Shown: one piece after another, positions 7,168 through 47,929 of the stretch
How positions within the stretch are numbered: position 1 is the stretch's first letter
How the letters are laid out: every line of letters begins with the position of its first letter
Assembly (NCBI GenBank): GCA_024762925.1
Contig: JANTGM010000039.1
Location: 1 to 47,929, forward strand
DNA: 47,929 nucleotides
From: Kofleriaceae bacterium
Lineage (GTDB): Bacteria > Myxococcota_A > Polyangia > Haliangiales > Haliangiaceae
Direction: 5' to 3'
Notes under the pieces: generated by a model
Told to the model about the DNA's origin: nothing
The model's database searches: none
The model's input: only the letters and a program-made list of their open reading frames with translations
Program-made: the position numbers and the translations under genes

Positions 7168-8445
7168 GTGATCGATTGGCAGCAAGCAGACTTTGCACCT
7201 GTCGTTCCGCCAAGCCTCATGCCACAATTAGACGAGATGGAAGAGTTTCACTGCTCCTTCTGCGGCAAGCAACGCAGAGAAGTTCGCAAGCTGATCAGCG
7301 GACCCCGGGTGTTCATCTGTGATGAATGCGTAAAACTATGCAACGACATCCTTGAAAAAGAGGAAGCCTCTGAACGGCCTAGCTACCCGCCGCCAACGGA
7401 GATTGTCGAAGACCTTGATCGCTACGTTGTCGGCCAAGCAGACGCCAAGCGCGCACTCTCCGTTGCGGTTTACAACCACTACAAGCGAATTGGTTCGCGT
7501 GGCAAGTCGAGCGATGTCGAGCTCCAAAAGGGCAACATCCTGCTGCTCGGGCCAACGGGTTGCGGCAAGACTCTGCTTGCACAAACGCTCGCTCGCAAGC
7601 TCAACGTGCCATTCGCAATTGCCGATGCCACAACACTCACCGAGGCCGGCTACGTTGGTGAAGATGTCGAGAGCGTATTGAAAGCACTCTTCCGGGCCGC
7701 TGGCGGCGACATCGAGAAGACAGGTCGCGGCATCCTTTGCATTGACGAGATTGACAAGATCGCCAGAAAAGGCGGTGGCCCTTCCCCGACACGCGATGTA
7801 TCGGGCGAAGGCGTGCAGCAAGCCCTTCTCAAGTTGCTCGAAGGCAAGAATGCGACGATTACGCCTGATGGCGCTCGCAACCGTCCACAGCAGGAACTCA
7901 TCCAGATCAACACGATCGACATTCTCTTCATTTGCACGGGCGCCTTTAATGGACTCGAAGACATCGTCCGCAGCCGCACAAGCCAGAAGGACATGGGCTT
8001 TGGCGCTGTCATTGGAACGCAGGATGATGATCGGGACGCTCTGCGTGCGCTGGCTCGCCACGAGGACCTCATCAAGTTCGGCATGATTCCCGAATTCATG
8101 GGACGACTGCCAATCATTGTCTCCTGTAAGGAGCTCGACGTTGAATCGCTCAGTGAGGTGCTTTGGCGGCCGCGAAACGCCCTCACACGACAGTATCAGC
8201 GCCTCTTCGAAATGGAGAATGTGAAGCTCACATTCACCGAGGATGCACTGACAGCTGTCGCCGAAATTGCTCATGGTCGAAAGTCTGGAGCTCGCGGCCT
8301 GCGGGCAATCCTCGAGGAAATGATGCTCGATGTGATGTACGAGCTGCCCTCCATGGACAACGTCAAAGAGTGCATTTTCACACGTGAGACGGTGACAGGC
8401 GAAGCCAAGCCCGAGCTTGTGTTTGAAGAGCAAGCTGCGTCGTAG
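7168..8445 (+). CDS. clpX: ATP-dependent Clp protease ATP-binding subunit ClpX
   Basis: 425 aa. ClpX is the AAA+ unfoldase that feeds substrates to ClpP. Seen directly: an N-terminal zinc domain (CSFCGKQ...CDECVKLC), Walker A GPTGCGKT, pore loop [10 protein letters not shown], Walker B CIDEIDK, the ClpP-contacting IGF-type loop as MGF ([10 protein letters not shown]), and sensor 2 [10 protein letters not shown]. The GTG at 7168 gives an N-terminal extension of 17-23 residues relative to the internal ATGs at 7219 and 7237; none has a clear ribosome-binding site, so the start is uncertain. clpP and lon are not beside it, which differs from the common clpP-clpX order. The last codons are duplicated downstream (see the repeat at 8431). 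Confidence 0.95.
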
Positions 8446-8485
8446 GAAGCAACGCGCTCAAGCAACGCGCTCAAGCTGCGTCGTA
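8431..8485. repeat. Duplicated clpX 3' end with a nested 13-bp tandem repeat
   Basis: The 14 bp CAAGCTGCGTCGTA at 8431-8444, which encode the last residues of ClpX and most of its stop codon, recur exactly at 8472-8485. Between them a 13-bp unit, GCAACGCGCTCAA, is repeated twice in tandem (8449-8474). The repeat lies in the short convergent gap between clpX and the HEAT-repeat gene. It looks like local duplication by slippage or recombination. Confidence 0.85.
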
Positions 8486-11409: not shown

Positions 11410-11486
11410 CTTCTAGGAACTCCCCTAGGGTGTGTCTGCGATCACGGACACATTGGCAAACCCACGGAGCTTTTGGACCACTCTAC

Positions 11487-12842
11487 ATGCGCGAGCGCTA
11501 CACGATTACAGACCGCGTTGACGCGGGCGGCATGGCCGAAGTGTTTCGCGGCGTCGCCGAATCGATTCAAGGCTTCAAGAAGTCGGTCGCAATCAAGCGA
11601 ATTCTCCCTAGTCTTGTAAAGAACGAAAAGTTCGTAAACATGTTCCTGGACGAGGCCAAGGTCTCGCTCTTCTTGCAGCACGCAAACATCGTGCAGGTCT
11701 TCGACATCGGGAAAACCGACGCCAGTTACTTCCTGGTGATGGAGTTTGTCGACGGCTGCAACATGAAGGCGCTGCTTGACCACCTCAAGGAAAAGGGCAA
11801 GCGCATCGATGTTGCCCACGCAATCTACGTGATGCTCGAGTGCTGTAAAGCGCTCAACTATGCCCACCATGCGGAGAACCCCGAAACCGGCAAGGGGCTC
11901 GAAATTGTCCACCGAGACGTCTCTCCGCCCAATATTCTGGTTTCCAAGAATGGCGAAGTGAAGTTGGTAGACTTTGGTCTCGCCAAGGCAAATAGTCAAA
12001 TTGCCTCTACCGACCAGGGGGTGGTCAAGGGAAAATTCTCATACCTATCGCCAGAAGCAGCGAGCGGATTGGCTGTTGACAAGCGAGCCGACATTTTTGC
12101 CGTCGGCATTTTGCTCTGGGAGATGTTTACTGGTCGGCGTCTCTTCTACGGAGAGACCGACTACCAAACCGTCGAGCTTGTTCGCCAAGCACGGATTCCA
12201 TCGATTGCCGCGCTAAACCCCGACATAGCACCCGAGCTTGAAGCGATCGTCCGCAAGGCACTCGCGCAAGATCCAAACGACCGCTACCAGGAAGCTGCCG
12301 ATCTTGGCGATGCACTCGCCCAGTTCCTCTTCAGCAACAAGATGAAAGTGACGGCCCGCGATATTGCAGCGGTCGTTAAGGAAACTCAACTCGAGCGTGC
12401 CCGCAAGCGAAGCATGGGGCCCCAGAACGAACTCATCAATGTTCTGATTCGAGATGAGATGGCAAAAGTCACCTCCCTTGTCGAAGGCGATGCAGCGCCA
12501 AGTGGCAACGAGCGAGCAGGCTCTCACAGTCTCGATCCAAACTCGTTCGTAAACACCAGCGATTGGGCATCCGACTTTGGCCTCGAATCGGGCCCCGTTA
12601 GCGCTCCACCGCCCATGGCACCACCAGCCGTGGTTCCAGCCGGCTCCCCACCTCCGGTTGCCTCGCAGCGCAGTACGGCCGAGATTGAGTCGCTCCAGCA
12701 AATGCTCGAGCCCGACCGAACAGCCGTGCACCGGACCACATCGACGTCAGGCAGCGTGAAAGTAGCGCTCTTTGTCCTCGTCGTCTTGGCCGCAGGGCTT
12801 GGAGCTTCGCTCTTCCTGTTTAAAGACAAGCTCTTTGGCTAG
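11487..12842 (+). CDS. Hanks-type Ser/Thr protein kinase with C-terminal membrane anchor
   Basis: 451 aa from the ATG at 11487, which sits at the usual distance before the glycine loop; an in-frame GTG at 11430 would add 19 residues without homology. Kinase domain, about 5-290: glycine-rich loop DAGGMAEVF, VAIK lysine, HRD as HRDVSPPN, DFG as VDFGLAK and an SPEAA activation-segment end. All catalytic residues are present. A Pro/Ala/Ser-rich linker follows, then one transmembrane helix close to the C-terminus (ALFVLVVLAAGLGASLFLF) with only a few residues outside. This tail-anchored arrangement keeps the kinase in the cytoplasm. The last residues and stop lie in the first unit of a 13-bp tandem repeat. 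Confidence 0.92.
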   Translation: MRERYTITDRVDAGGMAEVFRGVAESIQGFKKSVAIKRILPSLVKNEKFVNMFLDEAKVSLFLQHANIVQVFDIGKTDASYFLVMEFVDGCNMKALLDHLKEKGKRIDVAHAIYVMLECCKALNYAHHAENPETGKGLEIVHRDVSPPNILVSKNGEVKLVDFGLAKANSQIASTDQGVVKGKFSYLSPEAASGLAVDKRADIFAVGILLWEMFTGRRLFYGETDYQTVELVRQARIPSIAALNPDIAPELEAIVRKALAQDPNDRYQEAADLGDALAQFLFSNKMKVTARDIAAVVKETQLERARKRSMGPQNELINVLIRDEMAKVTSLVEGDAAPSGNERAGSHSLDPNSFVNTSDWASDFGLESGPVSAPPPMAPPAVVPAGSPPPVASQRSTAEIESLQQMLEPDRTAVHRTTSTSGSVKVALFVLVVLAAGLGASLFLFKDKLFG

Positions 12843-12922
12843 CGTCTTTGGCTAGCGTCTTTGGCTAGCGTCTTTGGCTAGCGTCTTTGGCTAGCGTCTT
12901 TGGCTAGCGTCTTTGGCTAGCG
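12832..12922. repeat. Seven tandem copies of a 13-bp unit derived from a gene 3' end
   Basis: TCTTTGGCTAGCG is repeated seven times without error. The first unit is the coding end of the kinase (Leu-Phe-Gly-stop), so each later unit carries a copy of the TAG stop. Each copy also contains the palindrome GCTAGC, giving seven evenly spaced sites 13 bp apart. It occupies most of the gap between the kinase and the convergent TPR gene. Perfect identity suggests recent expansion. Confidence 0.95.
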
Positions 12923-13000
12923 CGAACGCCGTGCAAGGCGATAGCGCTTTGCGAGCCGTGCAAGCGACGAGAGTGCTCCTTCGTGCTCGAGATTGCTGCC

Positions 13001-16000
13001 CTAGCGCAACCGAGCCAGGAGTACCTTGGCCTCCACAACCATATCACCTGAGTTTTCGGGGTAGTACTGTAAGAACATTTCCAATGCTCGGATTGCCTCG
13101 TCCTTCTCACCCTTGTCACTGTAGTGGCTCCCGAGGAAGAACCACGCCATCGGAGCAATGCCCGGATCAAGCCTGACCGCTTTCTCGTAGCTCGCCACCA
13201 TTCGGTCGAGCTTTCCTTCCATGTGTTGGATCTGTCCAAGCCAGAAGTACGCCAAGGCGTGTGAGTCATTGAGTTTCGTAGCCTTCTCGAGCCATTGAGT
13301 CGCCTGACGCAGATCGCCAGAAACCTCATAGCTACGCCCCAGCCAGTACGCCACGTGCGAGAGTTGCAAGCGGCTGCCCTTCGAATCGATAAGTAAGCTA
13401 CGCGCCTCGGTGAACGAGGCAATCGCGTCGGGTGCGCGATCGGTCAGCAGGGCATGCAAGCCGGCAGCAGTGGCTCGGATGGGAGCGTTACGGAAGTTCT
13501 TGGTAATCTCTTCCAGCGCGCGAGCTGAGCCGCGTTTGTTGCGAGCTTCGAAGTGGGCTTCCATCAAGAGCAGCCGAGTTTCCACATCATCAGGTCGAAG
13601 ACTTTGAGCCCGCTGCAACTCAGAGATGGCTTCGATTGGAGTGAGGCGTCTAAGAAGAATTCTGCCACGCTCTCTCGCGATCATCCAGCCGAGCCAGGGG
13701 GCATCGACTTCGTCGAGCAGCTCGCTCGCTCCGGGCGTGTCCCCAGTCAATGTGCGGGCGCGAGCTCCAGCCAGCAAGACACGCCCATTTCGAGTGCCCT
13801 TGTCAATGAGCAAATCTAGCGCCTCACGTCCCGCTTGGATGCGACCGTCGTCAATGTCGAGCTCGGCGGCACCAAGCAGTGCTTCAAGGGATTCCGGAGC
13901 AAGCTCCCTGGCCCGTGCAAACACTTTGCGAGCCTCTTCATAGCGCCCCTCGGAGCGCTCCAATCTTGCTAGCTCGATGACCGCGATGAGTGTCCCATCG
14001 CTTCCCGAGATGGGCGCAAGAACTTCTCTTGCTTGGCGTGCCTTGCCACTGGTCCGCAGAGCTGCCGCGTAGGCCACTGCGAGTTCCGGTCCGGCCGTCT
14101 TGTCGTACATCGGCTCAAGACGACCGATCGCGGACTTTGCCTGCCCTTTTAGAATGTCGACCTGTGCACGCGCGATTACTGCATCGGAAAACCGCGGTCT
14201 CAAGGTCAACGCTCGATCCAAATCGGCAGCGGCTTCGGTGAGTTTGCCAAGGCGCAACTGCGCACGTCCGCGAGCCGTGAGTGCCTCAGGAAGGGTATCG
14301 ATGCCCTGAATCTCATCGAGCACTTCAAGGGCCGCATTCGGGTCCCCTTGCAACAGCCGAATCTGTGCGCGACTGATTCGCGGTTTTGCCCGTCCCGGCC
14401 ACTGCTCGCTGGCACGTTCTGCCTCCACAAGGGCCTGGTCAAGCTCACCGAGCCGTATGAGAACGTCGGCGAGCATTTCGGAGAACATCCAGCCTGAAGG
14501 TCGTCCCATCTTGGCCTCGGCGAGCGCTTTCTTGGCCGCTGCAACATCGCCACGTTGCAGTTTGATTTCTGCAAGTACCAATCCCGCCCACGCGCCTTGT
14601 GCAGATGACACTTCATCGCCACTTCGCGAACGCACCATCACTTCCGCAAGCGCGTCATCAGGATCAGAAGGATTCTTAGGAAGCTCGCCTGCTTCAACGA
14701 GAATCCGGGCTTGCCAGATTAGCGCCGTTGGGTGGTCTTCTGATATCGAGGTTGCGCGGCCGATGGCAGCAATGGCTTCTGGGTAGCGGGCTCGAAGTGC
14801 CTCGGCGCGGGCCAGCACCACATAGCTCAGCAGGGTTGGCGAAATCGCAATTGCCTTGCTGATTGAGATCTGCGCCGCATCTCCGTCCTGCGCGAGAACC
14901 AAGGCGCGCGCCCTCAAGTAGTGGCCGGCCCACGAATCCGGTTTCATCTCGACAAGGCGCTTGGAATACTCCAACGCTGCCTGTACATCCCCATCGGCGA
15001 GTGCGAGGTATGCGCTCGCCTCAAGTGCACTTGCCCCATCGCTTGAGCCGAGCTCGGTGAGCAGCGCCTTGGCCCGTGTGGAGTCCTCACCAAACTCCCC
15101 TGCCAGCCGCGCTTCCGCCGCCGCAAGACGAGCCAGACTCTTCTTGTTGTTCTGGACCTTGTGTATGCGAGCCACCCAATCGCGAGCCTTCCGGTGCCCC
15201 AGATAGCTATCATCCCCCAGAAGTGTCGTGATCGCGGCGTTGGCAGTGCGCACCTGCCTTGCAAGCCGGGCTTCTCGAAGTTTCAGTCCACCGGCCGCAC
15301 CACCTGCGATTGCCAGCAGTGTCATTGCTCCCCAGGCTGCCTTAGGAATTTTTCGTACGCTCCTCGGCTTGCGTGGTTTCTTACCGCGTGTCGCCGTAGC
15401 GGTTTCTCGTCGGCGTTCGGAGCGATCTGCTGGCTCAGGCTCGTGCATCGGCGGCGGGGCGGAGAGTGCTGATCCCGAGGTTCTTGAGGCTCGTGGCTCA
15501 GAAAGCCCATGACGAATCACGTCCATATCCGCGGTCCGCGCTGCTGACACAGGTGCGCGAGCAGGCGTTGGCGGTGTGTAGTCGTAGTCGGAAACGCTTG
15601 ACGGTTCTTCATCAGGAAAGAGCGTGCCGATGGTTGCGGGCCGGCCAGACTCTGCCGGCTCTTCGTCAGGGAAAAGCGTGCCAATGGTTGCCAGTCGCGC
15701 AGGCGGTGCCGGTTCGTCATCAAATTCAAAAACACTGGACTGTGCACGGTCGCTGGCAAGCTGTGGCGTTACAGGATCCATGCTGGCGAGGCCAGGTGTC
15801 GATGGATCTGGCGTGGGTGCATCCATCATCGGAAGGTCATCGAGTTCGGGCCCGCCCCAAGGCTCATCTGGCGGAAGCGTTTCGGGAGCTTCCATCGGTT
15901 CTCCGCCAACACGAGTTCCACGCATGTCTTGGAAGGGGCCATCGTCGATGTGGCTCGGCTCCGGTAGTGCCCCGCTCGGCTCCGGTAGTGCCCCGCTCGG

Positions 16001-16582
16001 CTCCGGTAGTGCCCCGCTCACCGGAACTGGTGTTGGCGTCGCTTCCATGAGCAGGTCGGGATCCAGTTCCTCGATATCGGACTCAACGCTATCTGGCTCA
16101 AGGATGTCCGAGCTCATCTCGATGAGGTCATCAGCCGAGACCTCCATTGGAGCGATGTCCTCTTCGCGAATCTCAACACCTTCAAGCTCGGGATTGATAT
16201 CGACGGTGGTTAGGGGGGAGGGACCAGCAGCGGCGGCAGCGGCGGCCTCAACTTGAAGCTGCTCAACATACGGATCGCCCGGGGCCACGAGAGCCGCCTG
16301 CTCAAGTACAGCAACCGCTCGAAGGCCATCGCCCTTTCGCAAGAGCGCCTCGCCCTGCAGCGCTAGGGCACTTGGATTGCCAGGCGCCATGTCCAAGGCC
16401 GACTTCATCTCGCCCAACACTTCGTCAAAGCGCGCCAGAGCCATGAGCGCAGATCCAAGCACCACGCGCCCCTCCACTTCGGCCGGATTGGCGAGAAGGC
16501 CAAGTCGGCACACCCGAACGGCTTCTTGAAGCTGGCCTTGCTCTACACAGAGTCGACCACGTTGAACAAATTCCGCTGCCAA
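13001..16582 (-). CDS. Large TPR membrane protein
   Basis: 1193 aa, TTG start with an AGGCG just upstream, 5 nt after the preceding stop. The N-terminal ~110 residues hold about three TPRs. Residues ~120-405 are acidic, Pro/Ser-rich and unstructured, with internal repeats (SGALPEP three times at 189-209; ATIGTLFPDEEP twice at 298-327). A basic stretch (400-413) precedes one transmembrane helix (about 414-433), so the N-terminal part should be cytoplasmic. The remaining ~750 residues are TPR repeats, presumably periplasmic. There is no enzyme signature. It closes a six-gene leftward run after a lipoprotein and a flippase, so a role in assembly or export of a surface polymer is possible but unproven. 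Confidence 0.8.
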   Translation of the reverse strand: MAAEFVQRGRLCVEQGQLQEAVRVCRLGLLANPAEVEGRVVLGSALMALARFDEVLGEMKSALDMAPGNPSALALQGEALLRKGDGLRAVAVLEQAALVAPGDPYVEQLQVEAAAAAAAGPSPLTTVDINPELEGVEIREEDIAPMEVSADDLIEMSSDILEPDSVESDIEELDPDLLMEATPTPVPVSGALPEPSGALPEPSGALPEPSHIDDGPFQDMRGTRVGGEPMEAPETLPPDEPWGGPELDDLPMMDAPTPDPSTPGLASMDPVTPQLASDRAQSSVFEFDDEPAPPARLATIGTLFPDEEPAESGRPATIGTLFPDEEPSSVSDYDYTPPTPARAPVSAARTADMDVIRHGLSEPRASRTSGSALSAPPPMHEPEPADRSERRRETATATRGKKPRKPRSVRKIPKAAWGAMTLLAIAGGAAGGLKLREARLARQVRTANAAITTLLGDDSYLGHRKARDWVARIHKVQNNKKSLARLAAAEARLAGEFGEDSTRAKALLTELGSSDGASALEASAYLALADGDVQAALEYSKRLVEMKPDSWAGHYLRARALVLAQDGDAAQISISKAIAISPTLLSYVVLARAEALRARYPEAIAAIGRATSISEDHPTALIWQARILVEAGELPKNPSDPDDALAEVMVRSRSGDEVSSAQGAWAGLVLAEIKLQRGDVAAAKKALAEAKMGRPSGWMFSEMLADVLIRLGELDQALVEAERASEQWPGRAKPRISRAQIRLLQGDPNAALEVLDEIQGIDTLPEALTARGRAQLRLGKLTEAAADLDRALTLRPRFSDAVIARAQVDILKGQAKSAIGRLEPMYDKTAGPELAVAYAAALRTSGKARQAREVLAPISGSDGTLIAVIELARLERSEGRYEEARKVFARARELAPESLEALLGAAELDIDDGRIQAGREALDLLIDKGTRNGRVLLAGARARTLTGDTPGASELLDEVDAPWLGWMIARERGRILLRRLTPIEAISELQRAQSLRPDDVETRLLLMEAHFEARNKRGSARALEEITKNFRNAPIRATAAGLHALLTDRAPDAIASFTEARSLLIDSKGSRLQLSHVAYWLGRSYEVSGDLRQATQWLEKATKLNDSHALAYFWLGQIQHMEGKLDRMVASYEKAVRLDPGIAPMAWFFLGSHYSDKGEKDEAIRALEMFLQYYPENSGDMVVEAKVLLARLR
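15602..15691 (-). repeat. Duplicated 12-residue motif in the TPR protein linker
   Basis: The linker of the TPR protein contains ATIGTLFPDEEP at residues 298-309 and again at 316-327. The DNA copies differ at several bases, so this is an older or selected duplication, unlike the perfect 21-bp repeat nearby. The motif may be a short linear binding site. Confidence 0.7.
15956..16018 (-). repeat. 21-bp in-frame triplication (SGALPEP x3)
   Basis: Three tandem, essentially identical 21-bp units encode Ser-Gly-Ala-Leu-Pro-Glu-Pro in the disordered linker of the TPR protein (residues 189-209). The length is a multiple of three, so the reading frame is kept. Confidence 0.9.
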
Positions 16583-41897: not shown

Positions 41898-42677
41898 ATG
41901 AGCGATGAATTTGGAAGGTATCGACTGGAGGCGAAAATCGGCGAAGGTGGCCTCGCGGAGGTCTACCGGGCGCGTGGCGGCGATGGCAGCGTGTATGCGC
42001 TCAAACGGCTCTCACGGGCCCATCTAGGCACATCCGGGCTCACGGAGGTGTTCGCGAATGAGGCTCGCGTAGCGTCCGAGATGCAGCATGCCAGCCTGTT
42101 GGGCGCCATCGACAGCGGCCATGTAGAAGGCTGGCCATTTCTCGTCATGCCACTCGCTGCAGGTGGCTCGCTTGACCTCCGACTTGGTTTGGGCGGTGGA
42201 CTTGCGCGAGCACTCCTGCCTGCGCTTGCCATGGAATTGGGGCGAGCGCTCTCAGCGGTTCACAGCCGCGGCTATGTGCATGGAGACCTAAGCCCTGGAA
42301 ACGTTCTCTTCGACGAACAGGGCCATGTTCTTCTTGGCGACTTCAGTGCCTCTACCACCATCGGCACCTCGCAAAGGCAGCCCCAAGGAACGTTCGCCTA
42401 CATGAGCCCCGAGCAAGTTCGCGGTGAGCAAATGGACGAACGAGCCGACATCTTCTCGCTTGCGGTCCTACTTTGGGAATGCGTCAGCGGGCAAAAGATC
42501 TTCTGGCGTGAAGCACAGCATCTTTGCTTCATGGCCGTCGTTGAAGCAGAGCCTCCGGCAATGCCTCCGGGATTCGATGCGATGGAGACTGTGCTTCGCG
42601 GCGTGCTATCGAAGGCCCCAGAGACCCGCACGTTGGCGCTGGAAGAGTTCTGCCAGGCATTCGCCAACGCTGTGTAA
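41898..42677 (+). CDS. Short Ser/Thr kinase-like protein with altered catalytic motifs
   Basis: 259 aa, ATG start; it is a kinase domain alone with no membrane anchor. The glycine loop GEGGLAEVYRA, the YALKRL lysine, a C-helix glutamate (NEARVASEM) and SPEQVRGE are present. The catalytic loop reads HGDLSPGN in place of HRDxxxxN, so the aspartate and asparagine are kept but the RD arginine is glycine. The DFG motif is DFS. It may therefore be constitutively active or weakly active. It is divergent from the acyl-CoA dehydrogenase with about 31 bp between starts. The end of the gene is duplicated (see the repeat at 42666). Confidence 0.88.
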   Translation: MSDEFGRYRLEAKIGEGGLAEVYRARGGDGSVYALKRLSRAHLGTSGLTEVFANEARVASEMQHASLLGAIDSGHVEGWPFLVMPLAAGGSLDLRLGLGGGLARALLPALAMELGRALSAVHSRGYVHGDLSPGNVLFDEQGHVLLGDFSASTTIGTSQRQPQGTFAYMSPEQVRGEQMDERADIFSLAVLLWECVSGQKIFWREAQHLCFMAVVEAEPPAMPPGFDAMETVLRGVLSKAPETRTLALEEFCQAFANAV

Positions 42678-42695
42678 GAAAACGCTGTGTAAGAA
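42666..42695. repeat. 15-bp duplication of a kinase 3' end with its stop codon
   Basis: AACGCTGTGTAAGAA occurs twice in perfect tandem. The first copy encodes the last codons of the kinase and its TAA stop. The second lies in the convergent gap before the 60-aa ccm-cluster gene. Confidence 0.9.
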
Positions 42696-42701
42696 ATCTT
42701 C

Positions 42702-47703: not shown

Positions 47704-47929
47704 GCGGACTCCTTAACGTTCGAATCGGCAGACTTCGCTGCCGCTCCATCTGGGTCGGGGGTTTCGGCCGAGTCTTCGTCGCTGGACGCCTCAGAAGCCT
47801 CGGCTGAGTCTTCCGATTCCTCGTCGCTGGACGCATCAGAAGCCTCTGCGTCTTCCGCGTCCTCTGCAACGTCAGCGGCATCAGAAGCCTCTGCGTCTTC
47901 CGCGTCCTCTGCAACGTCAGCGGCATCAG
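47700..47929 (-). CDS. C-terminal end of an acidic-repeat protein (cut by the window)
   Basis: 75 residues are visible, reading into the window end, with a TGA that overlaps the next GTG. The sequence is strongly Asp/Glu/Ala/Ser-rich and contains two perfect copies of a 15-residue unit (DAADVAEDAEDAEAS). A disordered acidic tail is likely. The N-terminal part is outside the window, so no function can be assigned; its coupling to the 765-aa gene places it in the ccm operon. Confidence 0.75.
   Translation of the reverse strand, partial: DAADVAEDAEDAEASDAADVAEDAEDAEASDASSDEESEDSAEASEASSDEDSAETPDPDGAAAKSADSNVKESA
47838..47927 (-). repeat. 45-bp perfect tandem repeat, possibly continuing past the window
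   Basis: Two identical 45-bp units (47838-47882 and 47883-47927) encode the 15-residue acidic repeat. The last two bases of the window match the start of a third copy, so the array may go on. Confidence 0.9.

Follow-up and report, generated by a model that had tools for sequence, protein, structure and literature searches.

Seven perfect 13-bp units at the 3' end of a Ser/Thr protein kinase gene form a minisatellite that, in our reading (probability about 0.88), arose by tandem duplication at the gene end, was amplified by slippage and is putatively functionless. The array lies in the window, the 47,929-nucleotide stretch of a Kofleriaceae bacterium that was analysed as a whole. It occupies the gap between two convergent genes, a setting in which intergenic arrays of this genome are over-represented, and it was absent from all relatives that were compared.

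Structure of the array

Tandem Repeats Finder reported seven exact TCTTTGGCTAGCG units at 12832-12922 (period 13, 7.0 copies, 100% matches, score 182), and seven exact units spaced 13 bp were confirmed independently by a pattern search, so that the coordinates and copy number given in the initial annotation were exact. Seven perfect units cannot be attributed to chance. The features of the locus are as follows.

11430..12842, + strand: Ser/Thr protein kinase gene (Pkinase PF00069, E 1.1e-39; matches in 19 of 19 genomes)
12832..12844, + strand: unit 1, TC TTT GGC TAG (the kinase end) followed by CG
12843..13000, no strand: intergenic gap of the convergent kinase/TPR pair, 158 bp
12845..12922, + strand: units 2-7, perfect non-coding copies with TAG in all three frames
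13001..16582, - strand: TPR-repeat protein gene, from a family search; convergent neighbour of the kinase

The kinase ORF ends in CTC TTT GGC TAG, and its last 11 bases make up the seed unit. Unit 1 starts two bases 5' of the TTT codon and holds these final 11 bases, in line with the copying of the last codons and TAG stop that the initial annotation had described. The palindrome GCTAGC is present in every unit, giving seven sites from 12838 to 12916 in steps of 13 bp, the spacing that had been described. The array is 91 bp long with no flanking partial unit in the rotation used, and each unit contains one A in 13 bases and no stretch of consecutive G longer than two. Because alignments with homologues begin at about residue 19 of the listed kinase ORF, its true start may be near 11484-11487. 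The C-terminal tail of the kinase, as read from the translation, has a hydrophobic segment.

A simple scan of 12500-13300 gave no promoter-like sites and two terminator-like sites, both within the kinase coding region; the scan gave no terminator-like sites in the gap itself (12843..13000). RNA folding of 201 bases around the gap was not unusual (z 0.06 on the + strand, z -1.13 on the - strand). These results bear on the proposal that the units are a functional 3'-end element, supplying back-up stops or forming RNA structure by which the kinase and TPR mRNAs are ended or protected. The array does offer TAG in every frame and falls within both possible 3' UTRs, and the heptamer repeats of Xanthomonas and Nostoc are also near stop codons and mostly transcribed (PMC4692102). 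However, any 13-base tandem unit with a stop gives stops in three frames, the gap has neither excess folding nor a terminator-like site, and the array is not conserved in relatives, and we consider such a function improbable.

Relatives of the locus

The 26-base double unit, allowing up to 2 mismatches, was found in one of 35 genomes of the order, which is the source genome, and in an exact scan no viral contig contained it. At the gap 3' of the orthologous kinase, the array was absent in all 11 relatives compared. A relative search in named genomes gave one locus, in a Bacteriovoracaceae MAG, which at 28% identity was too distant for use.

The closest relative is a sister species (G001), whose kinase is 75% identical and ends in TTT TAA. 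Its gap has no perfect array and contains GCTAGC once; just downstream are two degraded unit-like sequences, CTCTTTGGGCTAG and TGCCTGGCTAGCG. Both are within three edits of the unit, which was equalled in 11 of 1000 shuffles, and the 9-mer TGGCTAGCG is common to this gap and the unit, which was reached in 12 of 1000 shuffles. The best edit distance alone was not unusual (193 of 1000 shuffles did as well). Since these sequences lie 3' of the stop and not on it, the early history of the array is uncertain. In another genus of the family, the kinase ends in TTC GGC TAG without an array, the only such tail among the 11 relatives, and the seed can therefore be an old gene tail.

From these few sequences, the likely order of events begins with an old F-G-stop gene tail, perhaps followed by an early duplication before the G001 split, and ends with late growth of the array to seven identical copies within the source species. 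A tandem duplication of the final 13 bases of the kinase 3' end would have come first, and slipped-strand mispairing (or unequal recombination) during replication would then have multiplied the units. Such growth would be tolerated for two reasons: the kinase keeps its frame and stop through copy 1, and a gap flanked by two gene ends is not expected to contain promoters or ribosome-binding sites. The initial annotation had offered a fresh slippage product as one of two readings, and it is this one that the data favour: the units are identical, unit 1 is the gene tail, none of the other 34 genomes has the double unit, and the orthologous gap of the sister species is without a perfect array.

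In two other relatives (G004 and G009, loci L007 and L010), the gap after the orthologous kinase carries CCCGTG-type hexanucleotide arrays. In L010 there are two such arrays, facing one another, which could base-pair into a long hairpin.

The unit and its palindrome in the genome

The genome searched comprised 6.79 Mb in 246 contigs. The rotated unit had six exact matches, all inside the array, and no exact copies of the searched 13-mer were present outside it in the whole genome; the search for further arrays of the unit that had been recommended thus gave no exact copies beyond this locus. Unit matches with one mismatch numbered 12 elsewhere in the whole genome, compared with 24 for a reversed control pattern. 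A dispersed repeat family of the REP or heptamer type has many genome copies, and here the exact copies are confined to the array.

The other reading that had been put forward was an array of protein-binding sites, with GCTAGC at 13-bp spacing as the sequence recognised. Every unit does contain the 6-bp palindrome, and regular arrays of identical sites, such as iterons, exist in other systems. The site did not recur at other loci or in relatives as an iteron-like site would: the genome has a single further GCTAGC-N7-GCTAGC, compared with 3 matches to the reversed control, and the gap of the sister species has its single GCTAGC without an array. Among 605 GCTAGC sites in 2.82 Mb (the array's own seven excluded), 16.9% were intergenic, which is no specific enrichment over CCTAGG (17.3%) or CTAG overall (18.2%). 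The other palindromes tested were 3-9% intergenic; a high intergenic fraction is thus common to the CTAG words and not peculiar to GCTAGC, and the TAG stop within CTAG may be the cause. In addition, a 13-bp spacing does not correspond to complete helical turns, which would place successive sites on different sides of the helix. Protein binding is accordingly a very improbable explanation of the array.

Tandem arrays between convergent genes

Arrays were surveyed in a first set of 2.02 Mb (contigs 1-20, most not to their end, plus the window) and a hold-out of 0.8 Mb, with genes called by a greedy choice of long ORFs, without a trained gene finder. Tandem Repeats Finder rows with a period <5 or <2 copies were dropped, and of overlapping rows only the best-scoring was kept; also left out were gaps that were <20 bp or lay at the end of one of the stretches surveyed, and arrays with <40% of their length in a gap. 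One 2,500-base "exact repeat" was a run of N and was disregarded. The survey gave 337 arrays in 2.82 Mb, or 119 per Mb. The period was divisible by 3 in 238 of 285 coding arrays and in 23 of 46 non-coding arrays, as expected if frame-breaking arrays are purged.

A perfect 21-bp x 3.2 array in the TPR gene (window 15953-16019) encodes EPSGALP repeats and is in frame, like most coding arrays of the genome.

Convergent gaps, which represent 19-22% of gap bases in these sets, held 15 of 28 intergenic arrays in the first set, or 12 of 24 when the window's contig is excluded. The preference held in the hold-out, with 9 of 15. Overall, 24 of 43 arrays were in convergent gaps, compared with 20.9% of intergenic bases (binomial P 5e-7). 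The kinase-end array is a typical member of this group, being non-coding, in a convergent gap and with a unit not divisible by three. In a partial literature, we found no earlier account of tandem repeats concentrated between convergent genes, and priority is not claimed.

Proximity to stop codons was scored at thresholds of 6, 10, 15 and 20 bp in the first set and 10, 15 and 20 bp in the hold-out. Arrays at most 15 bp from a gene 3' end numbered 16 of 28 in the first set against a placement null of 7.5, and this clustering is not obviously predicted by plain tolerance. Stop-codon-anchored arrays as a general class were rejected on the hold-out (3 of 15 against a null of 4.9), and because the pattern failed there, only the convergent-gap preference is claimed. 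The idea that gene tails are generally copied into the 3' flank was also rejected: with k from 9 to 12 and at two offsets, such copying was not above the downstream control, and at k=10 the tails of 7 of 1664 genes were recopied downstream, compared with 4 and 8 in two controls. Growth from a gene end is therefore no general process here.

The excess in convergent gaps, about two and a half times what gap length predicts, is a by-product of this work from one genome, and it is consistent with the idea that arrays grow most safely at gene ends. A further reading is that, in this lineage, perfect arrays of about 13-22 bp between convergent genes are actively favoured, perhaps as spacers or buffers where two transcription units meet, with a recurrent origin linked to 3' ends (e.g. 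stalled or colliding RNA polymerases). We regard this as quite improbable.

Other arrays were also noted. A second 13-bp array in the window, AAGCAACGCGCTC x 2.3 at 8447-8476, is in a convergent gap and starts two bases past the stop at 8445 of a gene that we take from its sequence to be ClpX-like; CAAGCTGCGTCGTA from the tail of that gene recurs directly after the array. At 42666-42696, a 15-bp unit, AACGCTGTGTAAGAA x 2.1, is in a convergent gap and extends over the stop codon of an ORF whose end is at 42677. Two large intergenic arrays might serve as strain markers, one of 13 bp x 11.5 with 73% matches (G000:C2:140328-140479) and one of 22 bp x 5.7 with 95% matches (contig C28, L162).

Arrays and the assembly

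An assembly artefact, either a false array or a wrong copy number, was weighed against the condition of the contig ends. Arrays were found at 8 of 46 contig termini examined, compared with 0.36 expected (0.78% of bases are in arrays), and five termini consist of exact arrays measuring precisely 97 bp. The window, a complete contig, stops within one such exact 97-bp array (45-bp unit x 2.2; 47833-47929), and four other contigs begin in exact 97-bp arrays. Contigs that end or start in this way indicate that arrays do break this assembly. On the other hand, the kinase-end array, at 91 bp, is flanked by unique sequence on each side within its contig and falls short of the 97 bp of the arrays that end contigs, and longer internal exact arrays of longer period were also resolved. 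We thus hold it extremely unlikely that the array is an artefact. The five 97-bp termini suggest an assembler word of about 97, with which a 13-bp array would be resolvable to about 8 copies. Seven copies would be within reach and near the ceiling, and longer copy-number variants in the population could be missed by assembly.

Comparison with known repeats

Several known kinds of repeat share features with the kinase-end array. Borg tandem repeats have perfect units of recent independent origin that are divisible by three in ORFs (PMC9879509). Perfect units, and periods divisible by three in ORFs, are found here as well, and a recent, independent origin is proposed for this array too. Borg units are A-rich and often have flanking partial repeats (PMC9879509), whereas the unit of this array has neither property and the array is on a bacterial chromosome.

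The GGGAATC and GGGGA(C/T)T heptamers of Xanthomonas and Nostoc are described as one dispersed, quadruplex-capable family, of which only 16% and 11% are between convergent ORFs (PMC4692102). They resemble the kinase-end array in being intergenic, scarce between divergent genes, and near or overlapping stop codons; unlike these dispersed heptamers, the kinase-end unit is confined to one locus of its genome and lacks G runs of three or more. The TAACTGA direct repeats of Beggiatoaceae are a dispersed family of one heptamer found mostly just upstream of start codons (PMC4679880). They also give stops in all three frames and some overlap the stop codon of a gene, but the kinase-end array occupies one locus, at the end of a gene.

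The closest likeness is to bacterial minisatellites and VNTR loci, which have short perfect head-to-tail units, are non-coding and species-specific, and outside coding sequence have unit lengths that are not a multiple of 3. Minisatellites have head-to-tail units of about 10-100 bp with no conservation between species; here the unit is 13 bp x 7.0 at 100%, and the array is in 1 of 35 genomes and missing from the corresponding gaps of 11 relatives. VNTRs are defined by copy variation between strains, and the array is known from one genome of its species. Alone it is of little weight, possibly a good strain marker; it is one more bacterial minisatellite, and its explanation is ordinary.
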